Shown here one piece after another: positions 6,261 to 57,000 of a stretch of 64,000 nt of DNA. Made by a program: the position numbers and the translations under genes. The DNA is from Climacium dendroides (lineage: Eukaryota; Streptophyta; Bryopsida; Hypnales; Climaciaceae). Every line of letters begins with the position of its first letter. Positions within the stretch are counted from its first letter, which is position 1. The notes under the pieces were generated by a model. The model was not told the origin of the DNA. It ran no database searches and saw nothing but the letters and a program-made list of their open reading frames with translations. Where the stretch lies: assembly GCA_950106755.1 (NCBI GenBank), contig OX467084.1, forward strand, positions 35,405,213 to 35,469,212. Direction: 5' to 3'.

Positions 6261-6410
6261 CACTACTACAAAATTTTGTTTTTATGTTGTTTTGGTCGCG
6301 TTGATCCGGTCAAAATCTGACAGAAATCTGTTGATTTCAACAGATTTCTGTCAGATTTTGACCGGATCAACGCGACCAAAACAACAGGAAAACAAAATTT
6401 TCTAGTAGTG
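6261..6410. mobile_element. CACTA-type foldback MITE (150 bp) inside Copia RT
   Basis: Nearly perfect full-length palindrome: CACTACTACAAAATTTTG on the left pairs with CAAAATTTTCTAGTAGTG on the right, and the centre (TGTTGATTTCAACA) has no loop. It is flanked by the 3-bp direct duplication TCT (6258-6260, 6411-6413). The transcript would fold into one long hairpin, a possible small-RNA source. It belongs to the same family as the copy at 28162-28310. Confidence 0.9.
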
Positions 6411-7470
6411 TCTGCACACAAGAGTCTCCTTGTTGTGTATGCAGAAGCCAAGTGGTTGATGCATGAATACTTTCTCCTTGAGAAGGTCGTGTAAAAATGA
6501 TGTGTGTACGTTGATGTAGTGTATATCCCAACGACAGATAACTATGAAGGCTATAGCAATGTTTAGTATGGTCTATTTGATAACAAGTGCATATGTATTG
6601 TTGAAATCTACTCCTTTGCGTTGCTCAAACCCCTGTACTATTAACCAGTTTTTTCTATCATAGACTGTCTTGGGAGTCCGGAATTGAGCTTGAATATCCA
6701 TTTGTAGGTGATTGCTCGTTTGTTGGGCGAGAGCGGTTCGAGATCCCATGTTTGATTATGCCATATGGAATCCATTTCTTCCTGCATGGCAAGTGGCCAG
6801 CTAGGGTCCGTCTTCGCTTCTTTGAATGTGATGTTGGCTTGATCAAGTTTTATTGAAGTAACTTGTGGAGCGGTAGTAGTGATGGTGCAGATCTCGAAAT
6901 CCATGGTGGAGAGGCATAAATCATATATGTCAAACCTAATGTTTTGCTTTTAGGGTTGTATTGAGCGCCAAAGGGCTAGTTGGATTGGAAGAATTGGTAT
7001 GGGTGTTTAAGAATTTGTTGGGGGTGGTGGTGCAAATATTGGACCAGAGACGATTGGAGAAGATGGGGGGAGGGTCTGTGACTGAGGAGGCAATAGAGTT
7101 TGGTTGAGGTGGGATATATAAAGTTTGGGGTAGGAGAGGGCATGTAGTAGCAATTAAAGTTGTGTTGGGGGGGAGTAGTTGGTCGAAGAATGGATTGTCT
7201 TCTAGTGTTTCTGTCATTTCCGGACAGATGTAATCAAAGGAAGTTTCATTGAATCCAATCTCTTGATTAATGACAATTTTTCTAGTAGGGGGGTGATAGC
7301 ACCGATAAACTTTATTGTTTTTGTCATATCCTAGTAGGAGAATAGTGATGGCCTTGGGATCGAATTTCTATTGCTTGGTGTTAGGGATGTGGCAGTAAGC
7401 TATGCAAACTAAGCACTCATAAGTGTCCTAGGTGAGGTTTGATTCTCGTAAACATTTCCTTTGGTGTTTT

Positions 7471-7479
7471 GTTTTTAAG
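7471..7479. repeat. Left 9-bp target-site duplication of the MULE
   Basis: GTTTTTAAG, identical to 20685-20693. Removing everything between the copies plus one copy rejoins the Copia integrase in frame (..ALKN|KTPKEM..). Confidence 0.95.
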
Positions 7480-7533
7480 AGGGGATTGCTATTATGTGAG
7501 CCTAGAACGGTGAGCGGTGAGCAGTGAGCAGAA
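7480..7533. repeat. Left terminal inverted repeat of the MULE
   Basis: Begins AGGGGATTGCTATTATGTG, then CCTAGAACGGTGAGCGG and two further TGAGC copies. It pairs with the reverse complement of the right end. The GGTGAGC direct repeats resemble subterminal transposase-binding repeats, by inference. Confidence 0.75.
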
Positions 7534-7941: not shown

Positions 7942-10900
7942 CTAACTGTAGATGCTAGAGCTAATGTCTTCGTCTTCAGAACTACCTTCGTTGGCCTCTA
8001 CATCTACATATTGCATAACACGCCTATCATATGAGCGCTTGGATCGCCGTTTAGGTAGAGATGTCGAAGCTGCCATCACCATCGCCGTATCTGCTGCATA
8101 GCAAGGAAGAAATAGGCTGGCTGATGGTGTAAACATCATAGGCATCAATGCAGCAGGAGATGAGGGTAATGCTGAAGCTCTGCAAAGTAACTAAAGAATA
8201 AGAAACCAAGTTGAGACCATAAAATGTAAGAAATATAACAAATTCATAAGTAAGGGAAGAACTTACTCATAAGAAGGAACGCAGTTGAGTTTTAACTTCT
8301 TCTCTGCACGATCTCCCATGCCTCGCTGCACAGCTTTCCTCTTCTGAACTACAGAAGCAGGAATCGAGGTGGGAATGAGGGGTTCCAAAAGAGCCTTGAA
8401 GATCTCCGAGTCTTCCTCAAAGGCCAAAATGTGCTTGCCAAGAGATTGGCAAGCACGAATGGAAGCACCTGCCGTAGAAATTGACTGTTAAAACAAATAT
8501 GATATGATTCTAAAATGCAAGATTAGAAACTGAAAAAATTGTAGCAAAAAAAGAATGAAAGTAAGAAGTAACCTGTAGAGGCATTCCAATCCAATATAAT
8601 ATCTCCAACTTTGGAGAGAGCCTCAATATAGGACTTCACAAATTCCGGATTTTTCTCCCGAGGCCCTCGCCATGGAACACTCCCATGCATGAGTTGTGAG
8701 TCAGAACTCACAAAGTTGTAGAAGTAGTCATGGTGTTCAAAATTCTCACCAATGGAGAATTTGGATTGGACATTGCCACTCCGTACGAATAATTGAACCC
8801 AAAAACGGGTGCATTGCCAAAACAAAATTTTCACTAGTATATATAAGAAAATATAAAGAAAAAAGAAAAAAAGAAAAAAAAAAGAAAAGAAAAAAATTGA
8901 ATGGATGATAACTAAAAGAAGAGATAAAGATGACAATTACCGTAGTAGATGGATTCCGTGGAGAAGCCAATGGAAGATCATTCATGCCCCACCAATCACA
9001 CTCCAAGCGAAAGTTGTAAGTCTCCGCACACTCCTCTACGTCGATAAGAACATTGCGGTCATTTGGATGGAAAAGGAGAAGTGCTGCATCGTCATGCAGG
9101 TAAATCTCTGCAAATTCAAAGATGGTATCAACATACTTCTCCGGTCAAACATTCCAAGGTGGAATGACCGTACTAGATACAGAAATCCCAAGCACTGGCA
9201 AGTTCTCTGGGATGTCTGCAATGAGAAAATCAATCCTAGTGTGCTTGCATTTGTCATTAGACACATGACGGGACCTCCCTGTTCCAACCTGGAAAAGAAA
9301 TTTGAATTAGAAAATAAATTGGAACATCAATGACACAATTAGGAATAAGAAGTAAAAAAAATTGTAATATCAATGAACTAGCAAAATAGAAGAAGGAAAA
9401 AATTGTAGATCAAGGTTTAATAAAAGTACCCGAGAGATGAAGTCATGCAGTTGGGTCCAAAGCGGAGGAGGACCATTTGGATCTCCTAAAGAATCCATGA
9501 TGGAATGCACTGAGGCATTTTGAATGAATGACTCAAAAGAGGTAGCAAGAAGTGGTGCAGAAGACCTAGACACAGTAGGCACGCGCTGCATGCGATTGTG
9601 CACTACGTTTCGACTGGTCTCCATGTAACTTGACCCTGCTGCATGTGAGTCCATAATAGGGGGAGAGTAACTAGAAATATCAACAGGTACAGAGATATCT
9701 GAAGAAGAAGGCAAAGGAACACCGTTGGTAGCAGCCACTTTTGCAAGTGCCTCTGCCACAGCCCTCTCGACAGCTGCAGCTTGCTCCTCTGCATCTCTAA
9801 CTAACTTCTCCTTGTTCACCTTTTCCTTGTCAGCCTTCCTTAAGCGCTTCCTTTTTGAGGAGGTGCCATCTTCTGTTGTAGCATGAGGTGATTGTGAGAG
9901 GTCCAAGAATACAACCTCATCCTCAGTATCTAGAACTAGAAGTGGAGATATAGTGCAAACAATGCTATTGCGGAGCTCCACCTCTTCATCCGGAGTGAAG
10001 ATCACAAGGCACTCCAAATACCAACCACCACCATGGAGATGAGCAGTAGAAAACTTCTTCAACTGCATGGGCGTGAAGATGCAAAGATCTGAAGATGGCT
10101 GAATCCATGCTCCAAAGAATGGAGGGCAATTGTTATCTCCAAGTGCATTCTTAGGCATGAGCTCTCTTATTACATACCTACAACAGAAAAACAAAAGAAA
10201 ATGAGAATAGAAGTAAATAATCAGAGAAGAAAGTGAAGTAATTGCAAATAAAATACAAAACATAAGAAGTGTGTAGTATATTGAGAATGAGTAAAATTCC
10301 CAACAAATGATGAAACAAAACACAAACCTGTAATGTAGCCGTTTTATAGCAAGGTCTGCTGATGGGACATTGTCAAGCCTGGTACTCTTTAAAAAAGGAG
10401 GCTTGATGTTTGGATGAAGGAATGGTAAGAATGCTTTCTCCCACAACATGATACGCCACCTCTCAACATAATCTGAGGGCTTCAATAATCCAGGAGAGGC
10501 CTCCCAATTCACCAAAAGCTCGCCCCCCCCACAAAGTTCTTCGAAATGCACAATAAACATTTCCTTGAGCTACGTAGTGACAAAGAAAGAAAAAATTAGA
10601 TATAGAGTGGCATCGGTAAAAGTAAAGAGCCAAATAGAATGACAACTATGTATTTAAATGAAAAGTGGAGGAAATACCTGAGCCCAGAATGTAGCTCAGT
10701 TGAGCCAAGTATCCAAGATGCTCTCCTTGACATCACCAACTGGGAAGCAAAAAGAGGCTCGAAGAATAGAGCTGGAGTTCCACCAGTGGAGCCAGCGCGC
10801 CTTGAAGCGTGGTTCAACTGTTGCAGTTGCTACCTTTTGCAACTTCTCAATTGTCATTTCAGTCTTCTTGAAGAGGCTGAAATGAGAATTGATCTGTTTA

Positions 10901-12404
10901 TGAAAGACAACTAGAGTTAATAAAACCCGGATAAAAAAAACCATGAATGCGATGAAATTGAAGAAAAGAAAGATATGAGATAATAATGAATTTACCTCAT
11001 CAAAGAAAGTCTCGCCATTCTTGGGGTTTGCAATGGCGAGATACTTTACAAAGTCCTTAGCTTTTATGGCTTTCACCATAGTGTTTGTAGCCAATGCCAT
11101 AGCATCCCAAACTCCCTCGGCTGATATCTTCTCAACTGGTGTCGTTCTGTGATACTCAGTGGCCGCATCATCGGCAGTACGAGATATATCTTGTTGAAAA
11201 AATGAAAATAAAATAAAATTTAGAACACAATGACAATAGCAAGAGATGAGAAATGTATTTTAAGACGATATAGTAAGAATAATGAATTAATAGAATCACT
11301 TACTCGGTAAAGAAAAGAGATGAACACGTCAATTGTAAGAGGAAACCAGGTGGGACGCGACTTCTTCACTTTGAGACATGTATTGAACTCCTCCTCGGTA
11401 AGCAAGTCCTTAAAATTGTCAAGGTTAAGTCCATCATAGTACCGAATTCGTTGCAACTTAGCAATTAAACTAGTCTTGACGTGATTGTGTTGAGTAGACC
11501 TGAAAAATAGAGTTGTTAGAGTGAACTAAACAACATATGAAATAGAGTATAAGTGAAATAAAGTCTAAATGAAAGAAATGTGCTCACCAATTGACATCGT
11601 GCATGCAATTGAGCAACGATGTTATACGTCCTTTGGAGTCGAGAATAATGCAAAACACGGAATAATGCCATCGAAGATCATCGACATGTTGAGCATTGAT
11701 GTGGCGCCACCAAGCTGTGAACCTGTGATTGCCATCCCACACAAAAAACATCTTTCCTCGGAATGCAGCATAGTCGGGATTAGACTGAAGTTGATTTTCA
11801 AAACGCTCATTGACATCATGCCAATGAAGGTCCCAAGAAGCTATGCGCTCCTCAGTGACATCCGTAGATGACATATGGTCATAAAAAATGGATATGTACA
11901 TGGCACGGTCACCGTCGATGTAGCCCCCCTCAAATCGTTTTTCCAAGGTAGCGACATCAACCTCTTGAATTGGTCGGACTCTTGGAAGAGGACTCATCCT
12001 ACAGAGGAGGACATAGAATCGACCTAATGGGATGCGCATACTATTGAGAACCTTCACAAAATCAGACTTTTGGTGAAGCCTCCTTGCTTGCTCTCCTGCC
12101 TTTGAGTCTTGCAGCCCGATTGGACATTTCGGAATAGTAGAATCCTTAGAATCAGAAAGTGACAAATCTTGGCATGCAATTAATGGCAATGCAAATTATG
12201 AGAAATAAAAAACTTGGACAAGGCACATACTTCATTAAAATCTATGTACAATAAAGATTTAATACCCAAAAAAAATGTATGCCCAAAGATTATGCCACAT
12301 TCCCAAGAGCTAAGAATGAAGAGAATTACCTGAATGACATCAAGAACTCTGAGTTGCTCTTCAGATTGAAGACCTTCATGCTCAAGTTGCGAATGCGCGA
12401 CAAC
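7942..12404 (-). pseudogene. ParB-like domain plus DNA amino-methyltransferase-like domain protein, carried by the MULE
   Basis: Multi-exon minus-strand gene. Exons read with GT/AG borders include 12167-11588, 11499-11304, 11189-10996, 10893-10678, 10569-10328, 10177-9430, 9288-8941, about 8810-8573, 8468-8267 and a last acidic exon ending at 7942; 12404-12330 is a likely upstream exon. Exon 12167-11588 has RPIQEVDVATLEKRF, then KMFFVWDGNHRFTAW, the DGNHR box of ParB-type domains. Exon 10177-9430 has a basic KRKRLRKADKEK stretch and a coiled coil. Exon 9288-8941 has IDFLIADIPENLP and YLHDDAALLLFHPND. Then come KNPEFVKSYIEALSKVGDIILD-WNASTG and, after an intron, ASIRACQSLGKHILAFEED. This order (motif IV before motif I) and spacing match permuted N6-adenine/N4-cytosine methyltransferases, but DPPY is DIPE. 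TGA stops in 10893-10678 and 9288-8941 and two phase mismatches mark decay. Function is inferred from motifs read by eye only. Confidence 0.6.
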
Positions 12405-12586
12405 CTACACAAAATTAGAAAACATTTGAAATTTGAGAAACAAGATTCAACATGCGGTTTAGGTTTTGAAGAATACAAATTGAAGAGTGTAGGGGTTTGG
12501 GATCTTAGTCTTACTGTAGAGGAGCTAGCCATTCTACGTGCAAACCAAAGGTGGACAGGCCGAGGGTGCGTGGAATCAGGGTTGGG

Positions 12587-12960
12587 AGCATTTGGCGCCG
12601 AATGCTTACTAGACAGCAGGCGGGTGCAAACAGCTCGAAGGTGCAAACAGTTGGAATAGCAAGCGGGTACAGGCGCAGGTCGACACGGACAATAGGCGGG
12701 CGCTGCAAGCATTCGGCGCCGAATGCTTGCTGGGACAGGTCAAAGGCGCAGCAGACAATAGGCAGGCGCTGGAAGCATTCAGCGCTGAATGCTTGTTGGG
12801 ACAAGTCGAGCGGTCGAGGGCGCAGCGGACAGCAGGCAAGCGCTGGGAGCATTCGGCGCAGGTCGAGTGGGCTGGGAGCATGCGGCGCCAAAGTTGCTGG
12901 GACAGGGACAAGTCGCAAGTCGCCGAAGTTCGCCGGGACAGGTCAAGGGCAAAACCGTAG
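12587..12960. repeat. GC-rich tandem array with GCATTCGGCGCCGAATGC palindromes
   Basis: About five imperfect units of 65-75 bp (GGGAGCATTCGGCGCCGAAT GCTTGCTGGGACAGGTCAA..GCGCAGCAGACAATAGGCAG). Each carries or derives from an 18-bp palindrome: near-perfect at about 12589-12606, perfect at 12709-12726, perfect with paired substitutions (GCATTCAGCGCTGAATGC) at 12775-12792, broken at about 12849 and 12879. The long ORFs here on both strands are by-products of this composition. It lies upstream of the ParB-type exons, probably within their first long intron or promoter. Confidence 0.8.
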
Positions 12961-13710
12961 AGAAGGTGAAGATGGCGGTTTAGGGTTTACCGAAAAGAAA
13001 GTTCTGTTTTTATTCCCCAAATTCCCCAAACTCCCCGAGTTCCACGGGCTTCGCGAGTGAAGCCGCGAGAAGAAGGAGGTTTTTTCAACCTAGTTCCCTC
13101 GGTCACCCATCCTTGAGCTATTCCTCTCTACCTTTGCTTAACTCCAATGTACTTAGCACCCTCCTACCACGGCTTCTAAACCTTGGAGATGTTGAAGACT
13201 TGAAAATTTAGGACTTTGTAAGATGAATGCAAGAATGACTTGTACTACTTGGTGTCACAACTTATTTGCTCAATCTTCATTCAATCACTACTTTTAGAGT
13301 ATTAATGCAAACAAGTTGAAATTTGAAATGAAGGTGCATATGACTACTCCAAACATAATTCATATTTTTCTTATGAAATAAAATAAAAATTACAAGTGTA
13401 ACATATATAAATTAAAAGGAGCCCTCGGTCATATGTTACACTTTTAATTTTTGGAGTTGGAAGTACTATGAATTTGGAGCTAAAATTTTGGGAGGATGCT
13501 ACACCACTTGACCTAAGGATTTCTAAAAACGATAAAAACTCCTTGTTGTAGGCATCTACAAAGTATGAAATCAAACTAGACTATTATCTCATAGAAGAAA
13601 ATTGTATTTTTGAGACTTCTTTCCCATGGAATTCTTAGCAAAGGCCATTTCTTATTGTAATTTTTACATTATAAAAAAAAATCGAAATAAAATTCCACCA
13701 AGTTACCTAG

Positions 13711-14600
13711 GGAGTTCGGCACCAAAGACTCATTGCAAGGCTTTTGTGAACCCCTTCTCAAACTAGTGGGTGCATCCATAGGTCACTGGGTGGACAAGAG
13801 TTTAAAAAACAAGATGGCAACGGGCTTGCCCTAAAGAAGGTTCGGCGCCAAAGCCTCATTTTAGGGGCTCATTTGAGCCTTCTCCTATAGCTGGTGGGTA
13901 TAATTTGACGTCAAAGGTAGGGGACGGGCCTTCAAATTCATACTTAGGACATGCCAAATGAGGTAGTTTTCTTAATTTCATACTTGATACCCCTAAATTT
14001 GTGCTTAAGCCTCTTATTTTGAGAAAAAAGAAGGTCAACATATCGTTGATTGACGTTAGGCGGATTTCAAACGGGCGAGAGGCTAATCGGATGGGCATGG
14101 ATGGATGGGTGGACGGGCGGCCTGTCAAGCGGCTAGACAATCCTAGGCTAGCTCCAAAGAGGGTTCGGCGCCGAAGCCTCATCTAGGGGGCCCATTTGAG
14201 TCTTGTCCTACAACTAGTGGATACAACCTTATGTCAACGGGGGCAGACAAGAGTTCAAAACAACATGGCATCGGGCCCGCTTCAAAGAGGGTTCGGCGCC
14301 GAATCCTCATTTTGGGGGCCCATTTGAGCCCTTTCTTGCAACTGGTGGGTACAACCTAACGTCAAGGGCAGGAGATGAGAATTCAAAAAAAGATGGCAAC
14401 GGACCAGCCTCAAAGAGGGTTCGGCACCGAAGCCTCATTTTGGAGGCTTAGTTGAGCCCTCTCCTAGAGTTGGTGGATACAACCTAACATCAAGGGGGGA
14501 GACAACAATTCGAAACAAGATGGCAACGGGCCCGCCCCAAAGAGGGTTTGGCACCGAAGCTTCATTGTGAGGGCTCAAAAATAAAATAGTGAGCCTTGGT
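13711..14600. repeat. Tandem array, unit about 128 bp, with GGTTCGGCGCCGAAGCC core
   Basis: Unit starts near 13713, 13839, 14162, 14290, 14418 and 14545, so spacing is 126-128 bp except for one degenerate, longer stretch (13930-14160). Each unit opens with a form of TTCGGCGCCGAA (perfect palindrome at 14164-14175 and 14292-14303), followed by CTCATTTTGGGGGCCCATTT and ACAACTGGTGGGTACAACCT. The 12-bp core is shared with the array at 12.6-12.9 kb, which suggests a binding site rather than chance. Confidence 0.85.
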
Positions 14601-16602: not shown

Positions 16603-19600
16603 ATGGCTAATTCTCAAAATCCTCCTATGGTGCTAATTCATGCTGATGGCCAAGGAGTTCCTATTTCTTTTCAAGTAGGAGCTGATGGAAAGTGCACAGT
16701 CAGTGCTCTTCGTTTTCAATTTCTAGAAGGATCTATGCATGTTGATGAGGAGGTCTTTGATATTGATTCCGGAGAACTTCTTCACACTATAGGTCATGAG
16801 TCCTCTATGAATGATCAAGGTCAGTGTTGGATTCTGAAATTGGGGACGTACCGAGTGTATGGATTGAAAGATCCTCTTCAAGGTGCATGCACTAAGATCC
16901 TCACCCCTAGGGTGTCATCTACATGCACCCTGCAAATACCTATGCTCCAAAAGGTTAAGATTGAGCCTTGCAAACGTATCATCCATCTCTTGAGTGATGA
17001 TTCTGAAGATGCGCTCCCCAGTAGATTGCCGTCTTCTACTATTCCAATCTCCAATCCTATTGTAATATGTCACCCTTCGCATGATACAAATTCATCGCAA
17101 GGCAGTCATCCAAGTACTTCTAGGCCTCCGATTCCGCCACGGATTGATGACTATGTGAGCGTTGTTGATTGTTTCAAAAAATTAGCTGCAAGGAAAGGGT
17201 TGAAGTCCATCTTGTCTAAGGTAGACTTTACTAAAATAAAAACCGAGAGAGTGGAATTCCTTCCCCCTAGATTTGATGGCAACGTGATGTTTGAGTTCCC
17301 CCCGCCGGGGAAATATGCATCACAGTCACAAGCAAAGCTCCTTCATGGCATGGACAAACGCCACGATGGCCATGCTTGGACTCGCACCATCACCTCCAAT
17401 ATCAAGAATGACATGGGTTTAACATTTAAAATGTCTTCGTGCTTAGGTCATTTGCAATGTACCAACGCAGCTTGCGATTATTTATCTCGTGTGCACCGGT
17501 CCTCTCAAGCTAACGAAACTGAATGGGATGGAATCTCCTTGTTCACCTTTGAAGTTGGATCTAACCCTCCAAAAAGCTCAACTATCGTGTGTAAAATCTG
17601 CAAGGTTTCTCCGTCATGCTTAGATGGGTGCTTGACTAAGATTTATTATGTTCTTGGTCATGGAAACATGACTCGTGCATGTGTGCACCTCGGAACCCAT
17701 TGTCATCCTGTGAAGATTGGCGAATACAGAGATGTCGCTGAGAAGATAAAGAGCCTCATTGATGAACAAGTAGAGAAGACTCCAACAGCAACTAATTCTG
17801 CCATTGTCCTTGAAGCCAGTAAGGAATTCCTTGGTGAATTGCTTCTTTCTGTAGATGGAGCAATGTAGAAGGAACTTACTCTTGATGAGCTCATACCGGT
17901 ATTTGATAAGTTCAAACACATGTCTTCCCCAAGTATTCGAAATCAAGTCACGACGTTTCGGTATTTGAGACGCTTTGGAGTCATGGACAGCATCACCAAA
18001 CTTAGAGGGTCTAGCTATTGGGCATTTGTCCAGGAGAACAAATTCCCTGGCCAAGGGTCTGAGTCCGACAAGGTCTTTGTTTTCAAGATGTCTGAGGTCG
18101 GGCCAGGAAATGGAGTTGATCTCGTGACAAGAATGCAGCCGGGTGGAGATTTACAGAATGCATGGATGATGTTCGACCATGTCAAGCGTGTAAAGGGCTG
18201 GACTTCCATGGCCTGCCATGTTTATGATGCTACCTATTGTCAGGTAATGACCATTGCAGTGTGTGATATGCAGTCGGAAGATGTTGCCACTCAAATCATC
18301 TTCTAGAAGAACTTGAATGCTGTTGTGGCCAGACACAACGTTTCTAACGTACAATTCAAGGGCTTCATGGCAGACAGTGCACAAGCAAACTGGAATGCAA
18401 TTCGTATTGTATATGGTAGCGGTGATGCTTCAATTCCTATGGAGGACCAAGAACGTACTTGTTTGTTCCATTGGACCCAATCATTGGAGAAACATACAAA
18501 GGCTGACATTCGGGCGGACCTACAATGACAACATCGTCAATTGTGCATGCAATACAAGAATGCCAAGTCGTTAGCAGAGGCTGAGGAGCGGTACCTTGCT
18601 ATCAGATCATGGTGGCTTTCCTCCGGGGCAACGACTGATGAAGGAGTCGTTTGTCTTGACCTATGGCTTGCTTTCTAGCACTTCCGCTATCGCCAATGGG
18701 GTGGTTTCATGGATTTGGTGAGTTCACACTTTGCTTCGGGCCTTTTTGCTTTTAATTTTCTGTAAAGTTGTAACCTCACTCTAAATTATACTACCATTCA
18801 TTTGACATCACAGGCCCTTTCCGAGGATGAGCTTGCTGAAATGCCCTCATGCAATTTAGCGGAGACTGTACACAACAAGTGGCTTCAACAGAGCGGTAAA
18901 CGAGGTAATGACTTGTAAGTGGCAACTGTCGATGATTACGTACGTGCTTTCATGCAAATGGTTGCCTACTACCAGTATTTGAATGGTGAGAGACCGGGTA
19001 CTGGACCTGGAAAAGAAGAATTGTTGCTTCGAGTCGCCCAACGAACCGCCCAACGTTCCGGCAACCTAAAATCGTTTCATCAAGCGCTTCGAAACATGCT
19101 TGGAGCTGCCGATTTTTGCACTCGCGAGCCTCATCTTCAAGGTGAGGAAGTATTTCTCTCCCTCAAGCGCAAAGCAGATCTTTCTCCTGGGTCGGAGTTC
19201 GACTCTCATAGACCTGACAAGATTAGCATCTCTCGCCCTCAGGTACAAACGCGAGCAGGAGGTGCAATATTTTATGATCTCACTTCAGAGGGTGACGCAT
19301 AACAAGAAGCAATTGAAGACTTGCATAATAATCCGGTTCAACTAGAAACACCTACTACAGTTCCAACTATGGAGCATGTGAAGGCTGTACAAGAAACAGT
19401 ATGCAATGAGCATGAATGACACATTGTGCGACTTCCAAAGATGTCAGCGAAGGCTTGCTTCGCTCAACAGGCCATCACCAAGAAGAAATGTGTGGCACGA
19501 ATTTTACAGGATGGAAAGAGTACGGCTACACCAACTTACAACGGCATCATGCACAACAATAGGAAGAATAAATAAGAGCGCATGCAGTTCTTCTTCTGCA

Positions 19601-20265
19601 ACGATGACATTGAGAGGTGCGTGAAGGGTACTCGTCGTAAGTGGGTGGTTTCCAAACCTGCAGTTCCAGAAGTTTGGCCTGTCAAGATTGGCACCAATCT
19701 CACACAAAAGGAAATCCTAGACTTGGAGAACGCTGGTTTTTGATTGGCACCACGTTTAGAGCTCTCTCCAAGGAAGCTATTAAGGGAAGAGGGGTCATTG
19801 GTGGACCTGTCAAAGTATCCTACCCCGGAGTTCTCTAACGACTTTCCAAAGCGTAGATTCGGGAAGAACATCAGGCGGAATCCAAAGGCACCTTCAACGA
19901 AACACGCCAATTCCTGTGCATCTGCTCTTACTGTCATTGGGCAGATTTTGAAGGTTTCTATGGTACCAATTCCTGCCCTGGGTTGCATCATCACCTTTGA
20001 GTCCCGAAATGGTCTCAAAATTTCGCAATATTTAATTACGATTGGTGAATTTTCCAGTTGTTCATGCCTCTTCTTCAAAGACATGTCAAGCAAATCATTG
20101 GGAAAGTGTGGACAATGGACAAATTGTAAGCATCTGTACTACATATTTCATGTAGTTTGTGGATTGGACAGTGAGATAGATGTTTTTATGCACGCTCCTA
20201 GTTTTAGCTTCAATGAAATTAAGCGTGTTATTCAGATGGTGCTACTTAAGCAACCAGCAACTTAG
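16603..20265 (+). pseudogene. MULE transposase (mudrA-like) with SWIM zinc finger, inactivated by stops
   Basis: One reading frame runs from ATG 16603 (G at -3 and +4) to TAG 20263-20265, with one 96-bp phase-0 intron (18718-18813). Part 1 (codons 1-420) has a beta-rich N-terminus and a Cys/His block (LGHLQCTNAACDY.., CKICK, MTRACVHLGTHCHP), probably a WRKY/GCM1-type zinc domain. Next, YDATY (Asp at 18226, about residue 542) and FMADSA (Asp at 18373) followed by RTCLFHW fit the first two acidic residues and the C-x2-H of MULE DDE domains. The C-terminus has CSC (20059-20067) and CKH (20125-20133), a SWIM finger. Premature stops lie at 17866, 18304, 18526, 18676, 18916, 19300, 19420, 19573 and 19741; there is no frameshift. 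An active copy would cut and paste the element in the nucleus. The third catalytic acidic residue was not placed. Confidence 0.8.
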
Positions 20266-20629: not shown

Positions 20630-20684
20630 TTCACCACTCTAGGCTCATCGCTCACCGCTCTAGGCATGCAAACTAGCTTCGTCC
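20630..20684. repeat. Right terminal inverted repeat of the MULE
   Basis: Ends ..GCTCACCGCTCTAGG then CATGCAAACTAGCTTCGTCC. The reverse complement matches the left end, including CCTAGAGCGGTGAGCG. An internal CACTCTAGGCTCATCG shows a second partial copy of the motif. Confidence 0.75.
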
Positions 20685-34740: not shown

Positions 34741-35751
34741 ATGATGGCTATTTCAGTTGAAATTCGTGCTCGCATTATAGGTTTGAGTGAGTGAGGAAAG
34801 ACAGGAGTTGATATTGCAGCTATTGTTGGAGTCCCTGTTAGAACAGTTCAGAGGTTGGTGAAGAGATTTCGAGAAGATGGAACCTACAGAAGCAAACCTT
34901 GTGGTGGAAATCATGCTAAGAAGCTTAGTGATAGAGATGTTCGTATTATTAAACGTGTCTCACAAGCTAATCGTCGCTTAACGCTCTCAGAGATTACTAA
35001 TATGTGTCCTACTCAAGTGTCTAGAAATACTATTCGAAGGGCTTTACATAGGAGTGGCATTTATAGTCGAATTGCAGTCAAAAAACCTTTTTTGACACCT
35101 CGTCACATGTCTCAACGATTGGCTTTTGTTCAGAAGTATTGTAGGTGGAGTGTAGAAGAATGGGAGCGAGTTGTTTGGACAAATGAGTCTACTTTTGAAG
35201 TTGGAAAAAATTCTAGACAAATTCATGTTTGGAGAACTGCATATGACCGCTATGCATCAGATTGTATAGTTCCAACTTTTAAGAGTGGGAGAACTTCTTT
35301 GATGATTTGGGGTGCATTTGCTGGAGGACAAGTTTCACAACTTGTTTTTATGCCTAAGGATCGACGCTCTGCTAAGGATTTTGTTGAAGTGGTTTATAAT
35401 GGCGAGTTGCTTCATTTTATGGGTAGAGTGCCACAAAGATTGCTTATGGAAGATGGCGCACCTGTCCATCATAGCAAACTATGTGGAGAATGGAGACAAT
35501 CACACCTTTTGGAGAAGCTTGATTGGCCTACAAACTCTCCCGATCTCAATCCAATTGAGAACCTTTGGAAGATTCTGAAAGATGTAGTGCAACATGACCC
35601 AAATAGGCCTAGAAACTTAGATGACATGAAGACAATTATTGAAAGACAGTGGAGGTTAATTAGTGATACAAAGCTCCTCCAATTATGTCATTCTATGCCT
35701 TCTAGGTTACAAGCAGTGATTGAGGCAAATGGAGGACATACACATTGGTAG
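34741..35751 (+). pseudogene. Tc1-type transposase, 336 codons, nonsense and active-site mutations
   Basis: ATG 34741 begins MMAISVEIRARIIGLSE, then TGA (34792-34794, codon 18) in place of a codon such as CGA; the same frame continues to TAG 35749-35751. Two helix-turn-helix units follow: about codons 23-55 (VDIAAIVGVPVRTVQRLVKR) and about 65-115 (LTLSEITNM.., RNTIRRALHRSGI..). The catalytic domain shows WTNES (AAT at 35182, residue 148) where Tc1 enzymes have Asp, MEDGAP (Asp 238) and SPDLNPIENLW (Glu 273), with 34 residues between the last two: DD34E spacing. The first Asp is therefore lost. A downstream start would give 298 aa and drop part of the first HTH. The stop codon lies just inside the right inverted repeat. 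The protein would cut and paste the element at TA sites; this copy should be inactive. Confidence 0.92.
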
Positions 35752-48063: not shown

Positions 48064-51000
48064 ATGAAGGCGAAGAAGAAGCGCGGGGTGGAGGCGGTAA
48101 GTTGGTTGGGGCGGCCGTAGTTGTTGAGGACGGTGGGGTTAAAAGGGGGATGGTGTGGTGTGGTTAGGGGGGGATGGGGATGGTGAGGGGCGGGATGAGA
48201 GCGGATGTGTCTGGATGTGCGATTGGGGCCGGGTTGGGAAACAATTGGCCCCGCGGGCGGGGGTTTCCAGATGGCTAGGGTTTTGCGATGCTGTGCTGGT
48301 TGATGGAGCTGCTGATCGGGAAAAGAAGCGGTGTAGATGTTGTTTGCGAGGCGCGATTGGAAAAGACGATTGGCCGATTGTGCTTTTGGTCTTTGGATGA
48401 ATTGGCTTGTGGTTGTGGTGTGGTGTGAGCTCTTGGGGGTGTAAATTGTGGTGTGGTGTGGTGTGGGAATGGCGCGCACGATGATGTCGCGGTGCTGCCA
48501 GACCGAGAGTGAAAATTTGGTAGGTTTTGGTTATTTTGTGGGGCATGGTTTGGGTTCGGTTTCGTGCTGTGGTGATAGAGGTTTGATTTAGTCGATTTAG
48601 TGAGGGTGCAGGGAGGGTGCATGGGTTGTTGTTTTTTATTGTGAGAGGAGCGTGTAGGATGTTTGAGAGAGGAGAGTGTGTGCGTGTGTGTTTTGGATCT
48701 GTTCGTGGTCTTTGAGGTTAGCTCTGGAGCTTGATTGTCTGAAGACGGAGCGTTCGGATTGATTTGATCAGGATTTCTGTGTGGTATCTTGGCGGTTCAA
48801 TGTGGCCGGTAGACACCGCTGTGTTAGGTTTGGAAATTGTGAGACGATGTTTGAGACAACGTGATGCATCTCGTTGGAAAGAGAGTGAGTACTCGCAGTT
48901 TGGAGTGTGCTCTGAAAGTTTGGCGTGATCCCGTGAGCTTACCCTGCAGTGTTGTAGCCTTGGAGGAGGTGTTGGATTGATTTAGTGTGTCAATACATAT
49001 CGTGGGAACTTAGTGCCAGTGTGTGAACCTGTATCTTGACAATTGGTACAACCTTTCCAACAACTAGCCGAAGCGCTCTTATCGTTTTTGTCACCGTTGA
49101 GGATGACTCAAGGGTAACTTAACCGATTAGTATGCAGCATTTTAATGGGGGGAGATCGGGTCTTTTCAGGGTTGCGTTTCTGTTTGTATCGTCGGTCATG
49201 GAATGGTCCTGCATGATTTGCGAGTGGTATTCGTTTTGTACGCTTGTAGCTTTCTTGCGTTGAGATGACTGTTGGCATAGCTCGTCGTTGACGTAAGTCC
49301 TAATTTTAGGGTTTTGCTATTCGGTATGATTTCGGGTTAGGAACCTCACGTAATGATCATCCAGGTCTGTTTCGGCCATAATTGGAATTAGGCCTACGAG
49401 GGTGACAAGTTTGTGAGTAGCAAGGGCTCTGCATGCCTGTTACAGAGCCAAGGTGGTTCCCAAGGTGCGTACTGTGAACTTAGCGGCTTGTGGATGCTGA
49501 CTTTGTGTTACTTTGTCGTGTTGTGGCAGCCACCTAGAGTGAAGGCATTCATCACCAGCGTAGTAAGTACGCCGCTAGATAACATCGACGTTCCTCTTAG
49601 CAGGTTCAGTTGGGAATATGAAAAGGTGTGGTTCATTCCCTCATTTACTCACGCGTGAGGATGCTTCCTTGTGTATATCCTTGCTCTGTTTTCGTCCTAC
49701 TTACGTTTGGTACTCGTACTGTACAGGGAGAATTTTATCATTGGGTGGACTTGTTCAATCACTTCGAGGTTTTCTTCGAGCAACATGTAAAGTCAAGGAA
49801 AGACTTGCAATTGGAGGGTGATTTTTTGGAAGGAGATGGTCCATTTCCGAAAGAAGCTGTATTGCAAGTTCTCAGGGTTACACGCATTATATTAGAAAAT
49901 TGCGTGAATAAGTACCTATACAGCAGCAACGAGGTACTAACTCAGTGTCTTGCAGCGATTCTGTTGTCTTTACAATATTAAGAGGTTTCAGTCTTCTGTA
50001 TTTGTGTGTGCGTGATGCCAGAGTTTTATTGGTCCTTGATGTTTAGAGACTCTTTTCTGCCATTTCATATCCCCTTTCTCGAGAAGTTGTCAGTTAGGCA
50101 GGTATTCTTAAAGTGAAGTAGACTGCTTGTTTGTGGTATTGCATGCTTAATTGTGACAAGAGTATCCTAATAATTGTAGGACTAATCGTATGAGGGGATT
50201 TGGGGCTGGTGGCAGCATGTATCATTGATGTTTGCTTCGACAGACCCGGACATAGTTATCGCAGCTTTGCAAACTTTAGCAGCGTTCGTGAAAAAACCTG
50301 TGCAGTCAAATCGAGCTATGAGATGGCATGGAGACACAACTCTCAATGCTCGCCTGTTCTCTTTGTCACAGGGTTGGGGTGGCAAGGAAGAAGGACTAGG
50401 TTTATTGGCGTGTGCTCAGGATAATGGTTGTGATGCTAATGCGTGTAAACTAGGGGCTACCCTTCATTTTGAGTTTTATGCAGAAAGCGATTCTTCTTCC
50501 CTTCATGGGGAGACCAACACCTCTGGGCTCAGGGTGATACACATTCCTGACGTTCATCTTCGGCAGGAGGGGGATCTACAGTTACTTAAACAGTTAGTTG
50601 ACCAACATCAAGTACCTTCCAACCTAAGATTCTCTCTGCTTACTCGCATTCGTTTCGCTCGGGCGTTTGCTAACCTTGAAACGAGGAGGCAGCACATACG
50701 CATAAGGCTGCTTGCATTCACAGTTCTTCTTCAGTCAAATCCTGATCATGAAGACCTGACGGCCTTTTTCATAAATGAGCCAGAATTTGTGGATGAATTA
50801 GTGACGGTGTTGCGATATGAAGATACCGTTCAAGAGGAGATCAGGCTATTGGCGATTCTTGCGCTAGCGGCCCAATCACAGGACAGGCCTAGACAATCAA
50901 ATGTGTTGAATGTTATTAGTGCTGGTGGTCACCGTGGCATTCTACCGAGTCTTATGCAGAAAGCTATTGGGTCGATCACCGAAGGATCATCAGGATGCTC

Positions 51001-54000
51001 CGTGGCATTTGTGGAAGGACTTCTTTCTTTAGTGACTGTTTTGGTCTCTTCATCATCTGGATGCGCTGCCCTGAGAGAGGCTGGATTGATTCCCACACTT
51101 CTCCCTCTCCTGAAGGATATGGATCCGCAACATACACATTTGGTTAGTGCAGCTGTACATATATTGGAGGCTTTTATGGATTACAGCAACCCAGCTGGCA
51201 CTCTGTTCCGTGATTTGGGTGGGCTAGGTGATACTGTTACGAGGTTGAAAGTGGAAGTCACTCGTGTTGCTGAGGGAGTCAAGTTTGAAAGAGAAGAATC
51301 GAAGCCGAGTTCTAAGGGCAAGGCTGCAATGGTTTATACACCTCCGCTATATCAATTGGGCTATGAGGATGTGGATTCTCAATCTTCGCAAGTGACCGGG
51401 CAGGCAGAGACTCTTATACCTTATCATCAAAGATTATTGCTGAAGGCTTTATTGCGTGCTATTGCCCTCGGCACATACGCTCCTGGAAACTCTACGAGGC
51501 TCCATATTTCAGAAGAGAGCGATTTGCCATACTGCCTTTGTACCATTTTTAGGTGAGGGGCTTTTTTTTGCGGCAAGCTACGCGCTTTTAATGTCTGCGT
51601 CTTTTATTAGTTATCCTACGCTTCTTGTATGTTACCTCTTTCTATTGTTACGTATTTTAAATCATGGGTTCTCATGGTTAATTGGTTTCAGGCATGCTAA
51701 GGAATTTGGGGGAGGTGTTTTCTCGCTGGCAGCATCAGTTATGAGTGATCTTATCCATAAAGATCCAACTTGTTTTGCTACATTAGATGCTGCTGGGTTA
51801 CCATCAGCCTTCCTAGATACTATAACGGCCGGCGTGCTGCCATCTTCTGAGGCAGTTGGATGCATACCAAACAGCTTGGATGCCCTGTGCTTGAATATCT
51901 CAGGTTTACAGGCAGTTCGAGATCGGAATGCTCTTGGTTGTTTCGTCAAGATTTTTACATCAAAAGTATACGTTCGAGCTCTTGCAAATGACACGCCTGG
52001 ATCTCTCGCTTCAGGCCTCGATGAGTTGCTTCGACATGCACCTTCGCTGAGAGGTCCGGGTATAGACATGTGCATCGAAATTTTGAAGACCATTGCAGCT
52101 ATTGGTGGTGCGCCAGTTGAACCAGCAGTGCCTGTAGATACCCCCGATTCCAGTAGTGTGGATGCACCTGTGCCGATGGATACAGATGTTGAGGAGAGGT
52201 CCAGTACAACACCAGACAATCTACCCAGAGCATCAGCGTCTCTTCAGCAGCCACAAGATCCTGGAGCTGACAGTAACTTGGAAACTTTCTTACCTGATTG
52301 TATAAACAATGCAGTACGACTACTGGAAACAGTACTTCAAAATGCAGATACTAGTCGTGTTTTTATAGAAAAGAAGGGAATCGAGGCTCTACTACAGCTT
52401 TACACTCTTCCGCATCTACCTGTTTCCTTTGGAGGCTCTTCCACGGCACATAATATGTCTGTTACTTTTCGTGCATTCTCCCCTCAACATTCGACCGTAC
52501 TGACTAAATCAGTTTGTGGTGCCCTCAATGAGCATTTGCAGGTAATCTCTACAAAGATTTTTTTTTTTTTTTTTCCAAATCTGCCTTTATTTACATGCGT
52601 TTTATCTCGTTTCAGATCTAGAGAAGTATGGACAGGTCGTTTTGAAATCTCTTTATTTATCTCAATATGGATTCGAGAGTGATGGACTGTGTTAACCCAG
52701 AACATTATGATGCAGGCAACTCTAGATCAGCTAAAGCTTTTATCAGGGACAAAACTTTCTGATTTGGACACTGGAGAAAGGAACAAGGTTGTTCGTTCTC
52801 TCTCGGCTGCAGAATGTTATTTGTCTCTGTCGTCAGTCTTAGTGCGAAGCTCGAACGCCATGATGACCGAGTTGAGCTCAGGAACTCCTGAAGCCCTCAG
52901 TAACGTTGGCATAGTTCATAGGGAGGTCCTATGGCAAATAGCGCAGATTGATGATGCAAAGGTTGAGTCAAAGAAGGAAGCCGAAGGCAGTAGCAGTACT
53001 CCTGCAAGTGTAGGTGTGGGAACAGCGACGAGAGAAGGGGAGGATGTAGCGGAGCCTTATCCAGTGGTTAGGTATGTGAATCCTGTACATATTCGGAATG
53101 GACCGTCTTCTCATTGGGGCGTGGAGCCCGAGTTCTTACCTGTGCTTCATGCAAGTGATGGGCCCCATCGAAGAAGCCGAAGAGATCATGCGGCTAATAC
53201 CGAAGCTCTGACTCAGATTGCTCGCTTGGGTCGATTGGCTCGCCAAGCAGATGCTACCCAGGTTGATACAGAGGGCGTTGCAGGCCTTTCGGAGTCCCCT
53301 CCTGCCACGGAGGTAGCCAAACGAAAATCTCCTGAGTCGATGAATTATGACATGATGACTAGGCTAACGGCAGCGGCTAGGGGACTATACGTGGCGTTGG
53401 GGAAGGCCATGTTGATGCCATCGCGTAGGAGGGATGATACTGTTCCGTTGACTATCGCTGCTAAAACGGTTGCTGGGAGTCTAGCAAAACTTCTTCGCGA
53501 CAATCTCAGCTTCAGTGGGCGCAGGGAGGCTTCACAAGGAGAGCTCTCTGTCTCTGTCAAATGCCGATACTTGGGGAAGGTAGTGGAAGATATATTAGCT
53601 GTAGTCTTCGATAGTAGACGAAGAACTTGTAACACTGTCTTATTGAATAACCTCTATGGTCATGGAGCAATCAAGGAGCTATTGAAAACATTCGCTGCAA
53701 CTAGCCAACTGCTATGGACTTTGCCGCAAAGTTCTGGAGGTTCCCCAATGGAAACTGAGAATGGGAAATCGAAGGCTGAAAAATCTGAAGAGAAAGCAGT
53801 GGCCAATTCCTGGCTTTTAGACACTTTGCGTAACTATGCCCGCTTGATGGAGCACCTTGTTACTTCCTCGCTGTTGCTGACCCCCGCCCCAATGGCACAG
53901 ATATTGATACAACCTGTGGCTGGTGTATCAGACACCTTGGCCAAGGATCCTGAGGCCTTTGTCCGGAGCCTGCAGGCTCAAGTTCTGGAAGTTATTTTAC

Positions 54001-57000
54001 CTGTGTGGAATCATCCCCAATTTGCACAGTGTAGTGCAACTTTCATCACATCAATAGCTTCTATTATTACGAATGTCTACACAGGGGTTGGGGATGCGAA
54101 GACAAGTCGTGCAGGAGGAGCTGCTGGTGCAGGTGCTCGCATGGCAGGGCCCCCTCCTGATGAATCTTCTATCTCAATGATTGTCGAAATGGGTTTCTCA
54201 CGCTCCAGAGCGGAAGAAGCACTTCGTCGTGTTGGTGACAACAATGCAGAAATGGCAGTGGAGTGGCTATTCAGCCATCCCGAGGAGGCAGCTCAGGTAT
54301 GGGCTGATTTCAATCTGTTGACCTCCGAACCTTGGGTTGGATAACCTCCTGTGGCTGCTTTTTCTTCTTCATTTTCATTCTGCGTAACTTTTATCCGTTC
54401 ATTATTTTCTTCAGACTGTATGTGATCGTTGATTCCTTGTTTGGATACATATCTGCAGGAGGACGATGAGTTGGCTCGAGCATTAGCACTGTCATTGGGC
54501 AGTGACGGTCCATCCAAAGAAGAATCAGCACCAGATAACCAGGATAAGGAATCTGCTGTCGATCACGAAGTCAGTCAAGTTCCTCCAGTTGAGGATATGC
54601 TCTTGACATGCATGAATCTTCTCCAGAACACAGAAGCTGTTGCCTTCCCTCTTACAGATTTGCTGGTGACTATGTGCAATCGTAACAAGGGTCAGGACCG
54701 CACTCAAGTCATATCTTATTTGATTCGACAGCTGAAAAGTTGCAAAGTAGACGGATCAATGACCGACACATGTCCGCTATCAACCATTTCACACACCCTT
54801 GCTTTAGTTTTGAGTGAAGACAGCACGGCCCGGGAGATTGCAGCAGAGAATGGAGCAGTGAGCATTGCATTAGACGTTCTTGAACAATTCAGACCAGTGA
54901 AAACTTCTCTGAAGAACGAGATCCCCAAGTGGCTTACCGCTCTTTTGCTAGTTCTGGACCACATGTTGGTCTGCAAGCTGAAGATTACTTCTGATCAACC
55001 TAGTGGGTCAGCGACTGCTGCTACCGCCAGCAACAGCATGGGCGTTAGTTCTGGTACACCTGCAGTAGTGGAACAACTCTCTGAAGCTTTGAATATGCAG
55101 AAGGAAACTACTGCGAGCCCGTTCGCTTCAGTACTTGGGAAACCATCTGGGTATATGTCAGAGGACGAGCAGAGAAGGGCTATGTCCGTGGCTGCCGGTT
55201 TTCTTCAGATGCAATTGCCATCTGCAACAGTTCAGGCTGTGCTGCAGCTATGTGCCCGGCTGACAAAGTCGTACCCTATTGCCTCTGCTTTCTTCGATTC
55301 AGGTAAGTAATTCTTAGACAGTTCAATTGAGCATCTAGAAATTTGCACTTCCATGTTATAGCTTGTCTATGTTTGACGAGCCATCAGTTTCTTGTGCGGT
55401 TTTGGCATTATTTAGGGATATTTTCTTGACAATCTTTGCGCACAAGGATATGATCGCAAAATTATTGTGTATTTCAGGTGGTTTGGCTGCCCTTCTGAGA
55501 CTTCCACGGAGCTGCTTATTTCCTGGATTCGATACGGTAGCTGCTGCTATCATCCGTCACCTCCTTGAGGATCCACAAACATTACAACAAGCAATGGAAA
55601 CAGAAATTCGACATACCCTTATTACCACTCTGTCACGACACAATGGTCGGGTTTCTCCACGGATGTTCTTAACTGCAATGGCCCCTGTCGTGTCTCGTGA
55701 TCCTGCCATATTCATGCAAGCTGCTTCTGTTGTTTGCCAACTAGAGACAGTTGGCGGTCGCCCCACAATTGTCCTGGCCAAGGAGAAGGAGAAAGACAAA
55801 GACAAAGATAAGGAGAAAGAAAAGGAGAAGGAGAAAGGACAGGAAAAAATTCCTGAGAAGTCGAGATATGATCTAGATATGAGCACAAAAGTTCACGAAT
55901 CTGGGAAGATTGCTAGAGGCCACCATCACAAGAAGGTCGTGCCCCACAGCTTCTCATTGGTTATTGACCAGTTGTTAGACGTTATTCTTCACTATCCTTC
56001 TGCTACTGCCGACCCTGTACATGATAAGGAGGAAGATTTGTCAGTGAAGGATAATAGCACTGCCATGGATGTTGATGACACAGAAGTGAAGGATAAAGGA
56101 AAGGGTAAGGTTGAGGACCTTGGAAGATCAAAATCAGAAGGCGATTCAGATATGTCAGAAAGTTCCGCAGCTTTAGCCAAAGTAACATTCATCCTTAGGC
56201 TTATCACTGATATCATTCTAATGTACTCCTCGGCTGTGAGTGTGGTCCTTCGAAGGGATTTAGAGAGCAGTCAAGGAAGAGGCCCATCACAGGGTGGTGT
56301 AGAGGTTGTTGGTCACGGAGGTCTTCTCTACCACATTCTTCACAGGCTGCTTCCTTATCCTGGTGAGAAGGTCAACGATAAGGTGAATGAGGAAGAATGG
56401 AGGGAAAAGTTATCAGACAAGGCTGCCTATTTTGTGATGGCAGTTTGTGTGAGATCAGGAGAAGGCAGGAGAAGGGTTGTGGTGGAGATTGCACGTGCTC
56501 TTACATCTGCCTCGCCGACGTCATCAGGACTTGATTCTGAGGGTTCAAAAGGTTTACAGTCCCCAAGCAGGAAAGTGCGGGCATTTGTGGATCTTGTGAA
56601 TTCTGTCCTTTCTTCTCATTCCCCTACTGGAGGTGCCCAGGCTCCTGGATTTTCACAGGACATGGCAAAGTCCATGATGGATGCGGGCATGGTCCAAGCA
56701 CTTACTCGTACTCTTCAGGTAGTTCTCTTCATCCAACTCCCATGGTACTACATTCTCTGCAATTTGTATAATCATACCTCTTGGTGACTTCTATATCTTA
56801 TGTTACAATTTTTACACTTAAGTTTGTGTTTTTCTATATTGTAGACAGTACTGAACAAACGCTCATGCTGTCTAATTACCAGACCCAGGTCTCGCAGGAG
56901 ACTTTCTATCGAAAATTTGCCTCGTAAGTTAACTCTGCGACTTACCTCCCAAGTTAACTGTTTAATCGCTTTGGGATGCAGGTAATCGATTTGGATCATC

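Follow-up and report, generated by a model that had tools for sequence, protein, structure and literature searches.

A ParB-like, methyltransferase-fold accessory gene in a decayed MULE-like transposon of Climacium dendroides, with palindrome arrays upstream

Known systems and the present locus

How transposons escape silencing by their hosts is an open question, for which the VANC proteins are a leading plant example. The closest described counterpart of the gene reported here lies elsewhere: a 1104 aa ParB + methyltransferase gene, encoded opposite the transposase, was described in 2025 from a brown-algal Sola1 transposon, in a paper that also cites examples from green and red algae (PMC12477816). 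The architecture is thus already known in transposons. By its published description alone, Sola1-1_Ec32 of Ectocarpus resembles the present element in the length of the gene (1104 aa, against ~1,096 aa in the window and 1136 aa in an intact relative, L006), in its same two domains, in its position on the strand opposite the transposase and in being a large DNA transposon, whereas it is a Sola1 element and the window element is MULE-like (PMC12477816). In size, domains and strand the window gene agrees with the algal accessory family as there described. Streptococcus phages Javan447 and Javan424 also encode an N-terminal ParB domain and a C-terminal methyltransferase in which motif IV precedes motif I, but the first protein is 310 aa long, its final 71 aa lying in a separate frame, and the second 418 aa; both lack the long middle region and have DPPY at motif IV.

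VANC, from Arabidopsis VANDAL MULEs, is likewise the product of a transposon accessory gene; its targets are tandem repeats in the non-coding parts of the element, and the motifs vary between related elements (PMC5735166). It is described with the domains DUF1985 and DUF287 in place of ParB and methyltransferase, and its motif YAGTATTAY is non-palindromic (PMC5735166). METTL14-type pseudo-methyltransferases share with the present family a methyltransferase fold without the motif IV aromatic, but METTL14 belongs to the MT-A70 family, is a subunit in a complex that methylates RNA and reads EPPL in place of D[IV]PE (PMC5023411).

To the known architecture the present analysis adds 33 related protein pieces and the intact L006, a glutamate in motif IV in ten of ten sequences, and palindromes upstream of the gene at two loci. 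The preferred reading, held at a probability of about 0.45, is that the accessory protein is a putative self-recognising factor that probably counters silencing and whose methyltransferase fold is atypical or non-catalytic. Over its ~1,100 aa, the protein would begin with a ParB-like domain, continue through a middle region and end in a permuted N6/N4 methyltransferase fold. The ParB-like domain would bind the palindromes arrayed in the same element, perhaps clamping there under NTP control in the manner of ParB, and by loading there the protein could keep the element active, as VANC does from tandem-repeat motifs. The methyltransferase fold would probably be a cofactor-binding or interaction module, not a normal amino-methyltransferase. 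Countering host silencing is the best guess for the function of the gene, with the palindrome arrays as candidate target.

If this is true, the accessory family would be a second anti-silencing system, unrelated to VANC: its recognition domain would be of bacterial style, its candidate target array is visible in the sequence, and its methyltransferase site is altered. A broader proposal would have eukaryotic DNA transposons possess their own parB–parS-like self-recognition, in which the ParB-like domain co-evolves with a private long-palindrome array beside the gene and a methyltransferase fold that has lost catalysis acts as the effector keeping the element unsilenced or organised; this is speculative and on balance improbable.

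The transposon and its accessory gene

The window, by which is meant the whole 64,000 nt stretch analysed, contains a decayed 13.2 kb DNA transposon within a Copia element. The nesting is supported by identical 10 bp flanks (ATGCAAACTA, 7402–7411 and 20666–20675) and by terminal inverted repeats, of which the left (GCCTAGAACGGTGAGCGGTGAGC, 7500–7522, plus strand) matches the right (20643–20665, minus strand) at 21 of 23 bp. MULEs are recognised by a target duplication of ~9–11 bp together with terminal inverted repeats; both are present, although 88 bp of unexplained sequence (7412–7499) separate the left repeat from the left copy of the duplication. A decayed transposase gene (16603–20265, plus strand) is divergent from the accessory gene. 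Read by eye, its frame 1 contains D542, D591 and C620xxH623, with AETVHN one exon on and CxC..CxH close to the terminus, while the pieces matched no transposase model in Pfam. The MULE label, already given in the first-pass annotation, rests on the 10 bp duplication, the terminal inverted repeats and the eye-read D/D/CxxH/E and CxC..CxH motifs.

The accessory gene runs on the minus strand from 12532 to 7942 in ~12 exons, encoding ~1,096 aa. A splice model tentatively places a first exon with an ATG at 12515–12532, covered by no relative found, and a second at 12330–12404. The ParB-like region (RMSPLPRVRPIQEVDVATLEKRF ... VWDGNHRFTAWW ... LLNCMHDVN) occupies 11588–12144, and is followed by exons at 11304–11499 (splice model), 10996–11189 (its frame not continuous with that of the preceding exon), 10678–10893 and 10328–10569 (both by splice model and comparison with L006). 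A linker exon with a charged stretch (9430–10177), laid out in the same way in P0009, P0011 and P0013, was ended at a GT donor that preserves the frame. The motif IV region ADIPENLP falls in exon 8941–9288 and the motif I region DWNASTG in exon 8573–8833, whose 5′ end is tentative and which is out of frame with the preceding exon. The next exon (8267–8468) extends from after motif I through an acidic, motif II-like FEED and is matched by P0006, P0007 and L006; the last (7942–8179, splice model) holds the stop codon. VWDGNHRFTAW, LIADIPENLP, KNPEFVKSYIEALSKVGDIILDWNASTG and ASIRACQSLGKHILAFEEDSEIF were all found on the minus strand at the positions first reported, and the 8573/8468 junction is GT–AG and, as had been claimed, in phase.

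Two in-frame stops and two frame breaks damage this copy, a point absent from the first-pass annotation. One TGA each is present in exons 10893–10678 and 9288–8941, and the frame is lost across the joins 11304/11189 and 8941/8833; the full protein is not producible from the window copy.

All 33 related pieces came from a database of 5.8 billion proteins. The C-terminal part yielded 14 relatives among 294 candidates (identity down to 32 %), and the ParB-like part 19 among 118 (down to 40 %). The full spliced protein as query had no match among 5244 candidates where shorter queries succeeded, probably because the relatives are stored as single-exon pieces. A scan of genome contigs returned L006 alone from 101 stretches, and no relative was found in the viral contigs scanned. 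L006 is intact, with 1136 aa, seven exons and six GT–AG introns; no transposase was seen on its contig. It is 32 % identical to the window protein over 1053 columns, the whole architecture is common to both, and five of its introns coincide with window introns in both alignment column and phase. The proposal that one MULE lineage had privately acquired the gene fails on this diverged, intact relative with its shared architecture and five shared intron positions, and also on the gene published for Ectocarpus Sola1-1 (PMC12477816). The accessory gene appears to be a member of an old eukaryotic family.

Gene capture is common in MULEs, and this commonness, like the broken state of the window copy, would suit a chance Pack-MULE capture, in which the gene, taken from the host or a foreign source, would play no part in the element. 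This reading is very unlikely: the diverged L006 is intact and keeps the whole architecture, and the same kind of gene stands opposite the transposase in the brown-algal element (PMC12477816). On the intact L006 and the brown-algal counterpart, capture was rejected as the main reading.

A methyltransferase fold with an altered motif IV

The first-pass annotation had described a ParB-like domain joined to a DNA amino-methyltransferase-like domain inside the transposon. Profiles uphold the second part, whereas the first is ParB-like by motif and only weakly by score. The C-terminal domain is a genuine permuted N6/N4 methyltransferase fold. It matched PF01555 at E 3e-5, its 24.5 bits falling slightly short of the Pfam cut-off of 26.7, and, among PHROG methyltransferases, phrog_6952 at E 3.5e-6. 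In a profile–profile comparison, the window copy, L006 and six relatives matched five phage methyltransferases, selected from the 20 listed of 57 records that were themselves matches of the same query, with a probability of 98.3 (E 2.3e-14, 198 columns); with the window columns alone the score was 105.8, and 100 column shuffles reached 22.2 at most. Among four relatives scanned PF01555 matched in P0006 only (E 0.022), an NCBIfam scan returned CcrM at E 0.023, and sequence searches of the PDB gave no significant match (DpnA and CcrM at E 0.35–0.71). Motif IV precedes motifs I and II, the order found in permuted N6/N4 methyltransferases.

The catalytic motif IV of N6/N4 methyltransferases is [DNS]PP[YFW], with the aromatic at position 4 normally stacking on the target base. 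Within its methyltransferase fold the present family conserves a non-canonical motif IV. Position 4 is E in all ten sequences covering the motif, which include 8 of the 14 methyltransferase-part relatives, and none reads [DNS]PP[YFW]; nine have D[IV]PE and one DIFE (DIPEN in the window, P0001 and P0008–P0013; DIFEN in P0014; DVPED in L006). This glutamate makes ordinary catalysis doubtful. For motif I, the cofactor loop of which is FxGxG, the family has DWNASTG, EWNASTG, DWKASTG, DVNAGVG and variants, and DITASTG, with the D replaced by E in P0001, P0002 and P0004.

The protein could instead be an active N6-adenine or N4-cytosine methyltransferase, its ParB-like domain guiding the marking of the element's own DNA. 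For the Ectocarpus protein its authors predict 4mC or 6mA, and they propose that proteins of this kind may bind their own transposon and modify it epigenetically (PMC12477816). Around motifs I and II the family aligns with the phage enzymes, and phage enzyme L003 has ADIPY, so that isoleucine at position 2 does occur in annotated methyltransferases. However, all ten sequences have E where an aromatic is normally found, and the motif I replacements in three relatives also argue against activity. METTL14 (EPPL) is likewise without the aromatic, and its site is described as degenerate (PMC5023411). An active enzyme is therefore regarded as unlikely, and the marking of element DNA first proposed as doubtful; such genes should not be assumed to write 6mA or 4mC.

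ParB-like region and upstream palindromes

The ParB/Srx hallmark is a GxHR box following a conserved N-terminal strand–helix–strand. GNHR is present in 14/14 rows of alignment A3, which omits six of the 19 ParB-exon relatives (P0021, P0025, P0027, P0031, P0032 and P0033; seemingly truncated or frame-shifted), and also in L006; in alignment A2, which keeps those six, P0021 reads DENYR at the site. The region's motifs RMxxLPxVRP, DVxxLExxF, GNHR and LLNxMxDxN stand in ParB order if one insert is allowed. Against 12 phage ParB domains, our own choice from 40 listed of 269 records, the profile scored 19.3 in local mode with the presumed insert removed (best of 150 shuffles, 18.1), and 5.3 in global mode, below the 9.6 reached in shuffles. 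Pfam ParB (PF02195) matched neither the window exon nor the 14 aligned members nor L006, and the ParB exon searched against phages gave no match. The structure prediction suggested at first pass gave AlphaFold models of mean pLDDT 49 and 32 for the two domains, with no usable fold, and a fold search with the ParB-region model found no match at E < 1.

It is quite unlikely, though consistent with several of these results, that the N-terminal domain has a non-ParB fold, with GNHR arising by chance and the palindromes being ordinary tandem repeats. The absent Pfam and PDB matches, weak profile score and low-confidence model point that way, as do two matches to function-unknown families (E 0.066 and 0.099) when nine members were scanned against PHROGs. 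Against this, the sole PHROG match of L006, the most diverged member, is to phrog_1033, a ParB-like partition family, over the GNHR site (E 0.25, not significant), and the motif order, with its one insert, is that of ParB.

Two palindrome clusters lie upstream of the gene. Cluster 1 (12591–12892) has four sites with at most two mismatches from TTCGGCGCCGAA, and perfect palindromes of 26 nt (12705–12730) and 22 nt (12773–12794); cluster 2 (13709–14577) repeats this core at six sites, in units spaced 126–128 bp with one 323 bp gap. All ten sites within two mismatches of the window core fall in 12591–14558, against 0.59 expected. In length, the 26 and 22 nt palindromes exceed every other perfect palindrome of the window, and they lie 173–262 bp upstream of the putative ATG; simulations of the window reached 22 nt in 4 of 100 and never exceeded it. 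L006 has two perfect 30 nt palindromes 185–536 bp upstream of its ATG, within a ~107 bp repeat whose array extends to the contig end, and a palindrome of at least 22 nt appeared in 1 of 500 simulations.

Both loci with readable DNA therefore have long perfect palindromes directly upstream of the gene, differing in sequence between them; the link is drawn from these two loci, and the window core was picked after inspection. Their position is as would be expected of candidate parS-like or VANC-like binding sites, and the L006 array hints at a self-recognition system.

Plasmid ParB proteins bind palindromes for partition, and accessory genes are present in MuDR and other autonomous elements. With these precedents, and with the sites located between two divergent genes, the protein might be a transposition helper that binds internal palindromes for the transposition complex, or for replication or partition of an excised circle, instead of influencing silencing. 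This too is unlikely: the window core, at up to two mismatches, has no copy near either terminal repeat, and no ParA-like gene stood out when the window ORFs were looked over.

The palindrome copies were also inspected for compensating changes. At window site 12778 both arms are changed, yet both changes are of the CpG-decay type. L006 offers a single case: between copies 1 and 4 one symmetric pair of positions differs, and each copy remains a perfect 30 nt palindrome.

Coding capacity of the accessory gene

The accessory gene carried by the MULE-like element was modelled on the minus strand as 12 exons (window 12532–7942), with a tentative first exon at 12532–12515 and with donor 9430 shifted by one base relative to the initial exon model. 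Its introns are bordered by GT-AG, the acceptor preceding the exon that ends at 8573 being uncertain, and the read-through product is ~1,096 aa. The motifs quoted in the first-pass annotation were all found here on the minus strand, and the frame is kept across the 8573/8468 junction; the window copy is disrupted by two in-frame TGA codons and two joins out of frame.

Near its C-terminus the protein matches PF01555 (E 3e-5, slightly under the curated cut-off), and its C-terminal part matches DNA methyltransferases in PHROG (E 3.5e-6). In a tblastn search of phages 57 records matched this part, with a best E of 6e-4 among the 20 of 57 listed. A profile of the window sequence, its intact diverged relative L006 and six further relatives matched five phage methyltransferases across the domain (probability 98.3, E 2.3e-14), and the window columns alone scored 105.8, while 100 column shuffles reached at most 22.2; these five sequences were drawn from matches of the same query, thus the Pfam and PHROG results are the independent tests. 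PF01555 was detected in one of the four relatives scanned (P0006, E 0.022). A PDB profile search with relatives of the methyltransferase part found no methyltransferase; many of these pieces end at motif I. Motif IV lies ahead of motif I, so the domain fits the permuted class.

The exon at 12144–11588 and its neighbour have 19 relatives among 118 candidates. GNHR is invariant in 14 aligned rows (six poor rows excluded) and its surroundings are nearly so; L006 reads KYFYIWDGNHRHFAW at this site. Given one insert, the motif order resembles that of ParB. Pfam gave no match to this region, and a profile of it compared with 12 phage ParB domains narrowly exceeded shuffles in local alignment (19.3 versus a best of 18.1 in 150) and fell under them in global alignment (5.3 versus 9.6). 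Modelling its structure gave low confidence (pLDDT 49), and a fold search with the model matched nothing. The sole PHROG match of the L006 exon was a ParB-like partition family (E 0.25); two other members matched families of unknown function (E 0.066 and 0.099). Of the fusion originally proposed, the methyltransferase half is upheld, while the N-terminal domain is, from its motifs, probably ParB.

Shared introns and a changed motif IV

L006 (CADCWO010000058.1, 4691 bp) was found by one genome-contig scan and is filed under a cyanobacterial (Synechococcales) metagenome-assembled genome. Because it carries a spliced gene with six GT-AG introns, the contig is almost certainly a eukaryotic stray, apparently mis-binned. 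Its 1136 aa product is unbroken and shares 32 % identity with the window product over 1053 columns. Five of the six introns are common to both genes in alignment column and phase (window/L006: after DVN/DLN, FLYR/MHE, FFDE/FFKE, FWAQ/FWAG and NAST/TAST); the sixth matches a window intron in phase, four columns off in a poorly aligned tail. From these common positions and phases it follows that both genes descend from an intron-bearing ancestor, rather than from a gene lately passed by bacteria to a single element; this argues against the earlier suggestion that the gene was acquired, as a prokaryote-type one, by a plant MULE lineage.

In the profile alignment, phage motif IV D[PI]PY corresponds to DIPE in the window. 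Motif IV is covered by 8 of the 14 database relatives (DIPEN in seven, DIFEN in one), and the intact L006 has DVPED. Position 4 is E in 10/10 sequences, window counted; the changed motif is therefore not decay of a single copy. Several forms of the motif I region occur (DWNASTG, EWNASTG, DWKASTG, DVNAGVG and variants, DITASTG). Judged by sequence, a normal amino-methyltransferase reaction appears doubtful, and with it the proposal that the protein marks element DNA by methylation; cofactor binding would still be possible. The pseudo-methyltransferase METTL14 has the motif EPPL without the stacking residue and a site described as degenerate (PMC5023411). Our reading also departs from that of the Ectocarpus protein, a ParB–methyltransferase gene product of the brown-algal Sola1 transposon compared by description only, for which 4mC/6mA activity was predicted (PMC12477816).

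Palindrome arrays and a possible role

The two longest perfect palindromes of the 64-kb window (26 and 22 nt) lie close to each other at 12705–12794, just upstream of the accessory gene. The core TTCGGCGCCGAA, picked after inspection, occurs at 10 sites with ≤2 mismatches versus 0.59 expected by shuffling, all within 12591–14558 between the divergent genes; six lie in repeat units spaced 126–128 bp apart, interrupted once by a 323-bp gap. L006 has, in the 450 bp that precede its gene, four copies of a ~107 bp unit (spacing 106, 107 and 109) centred on GGGTCTCGGATCCGAGACCC, two of the four being perfect across 30 nt. Simulations with local dinucleotide content gave 22 nt palindromes in 4/100 runs for the window, none longer, and reached 22 nt in 1/500 for L006. 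The palindromes of the two loci are unrelated in sequence. As candidate recognition sites the arrays are a strong lead rather than proof, since the core was chosen post hoc and arrays are known from two loci. By eye, 10 of the 11 substitutions separating the ten window sites from the perfect core are of CpG-decay type, as would be in keeping with earlier methylation of cytosines in the array.

The fold, the family, the motif change and the arrays are observed; array binding, anti-silencing and loss of catalysis are inferred. The simplest account, and the one preferred, is that the accessory protein may be a self-recognition protein that loads onto the palindrome array beside its own promoter and, once loaded, keeps the element active, the methyltransferase fold serving as an atypical effector. 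Fusions to N6/N4 methyltransferases in phages are listed in a 2025 survey of ParB folds, which names sulfiredoxin as the most common eukaryotic representative; no word beginning with ‘transpos’ was found in its main text (PMC12704722). Among the matches listed from the open-access literature, there was no account of a ParB–methyltransferase gene in a MULE-like element.

The element and neighbouring sequences

An identical 10-bp ATGCAAACTA lies on both sides of the insertion (7402–7411 and 20666–20675), flanked left and right by Copia-type reading frames; the right-hand piece, searched with a stray prefix in the query, matches rve (E 0.025). The terminal inverted repeats match at 21/23 bp, the left one 88 bp inward of its duplication. 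The transposase gene (from 16603, plus strand) is decayed like the accessory gene. Inspection by eye shows a pair of acidic residues at a spacing of 49, CxxH 29 residues past the second, AETVHN in the following exon and CxC..CxH close to the end, a layout which we take to be the MULE pattern. Pfam transposase models gave no match to it, and the MULE assignment, favoured by the duplication, repeats and motifs, is therefore likely but not proven. The Copia-type region also holds an inverted repeat (6261–6410) with 74 nt arms, 96 % complementary and 2 nt apart.

Elsewhere in the window, a Tc1-type transposase ORF (34795–35751, plus strand, 318 aa) is open, without a stop, and matches HTH_Tnp_Tc3_2 (E 3.6e-15) and DDE_3 (E 6.9e-13); an open Tc1-type transposase would be unusual in a plant-like host. 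A long multi-exon gene (50186–63754, plus strand), one piece of which has a weak HECT match (E 0.2), presumably resembles the plant UPL1/UPL2 HECT ubiquitin ligases.
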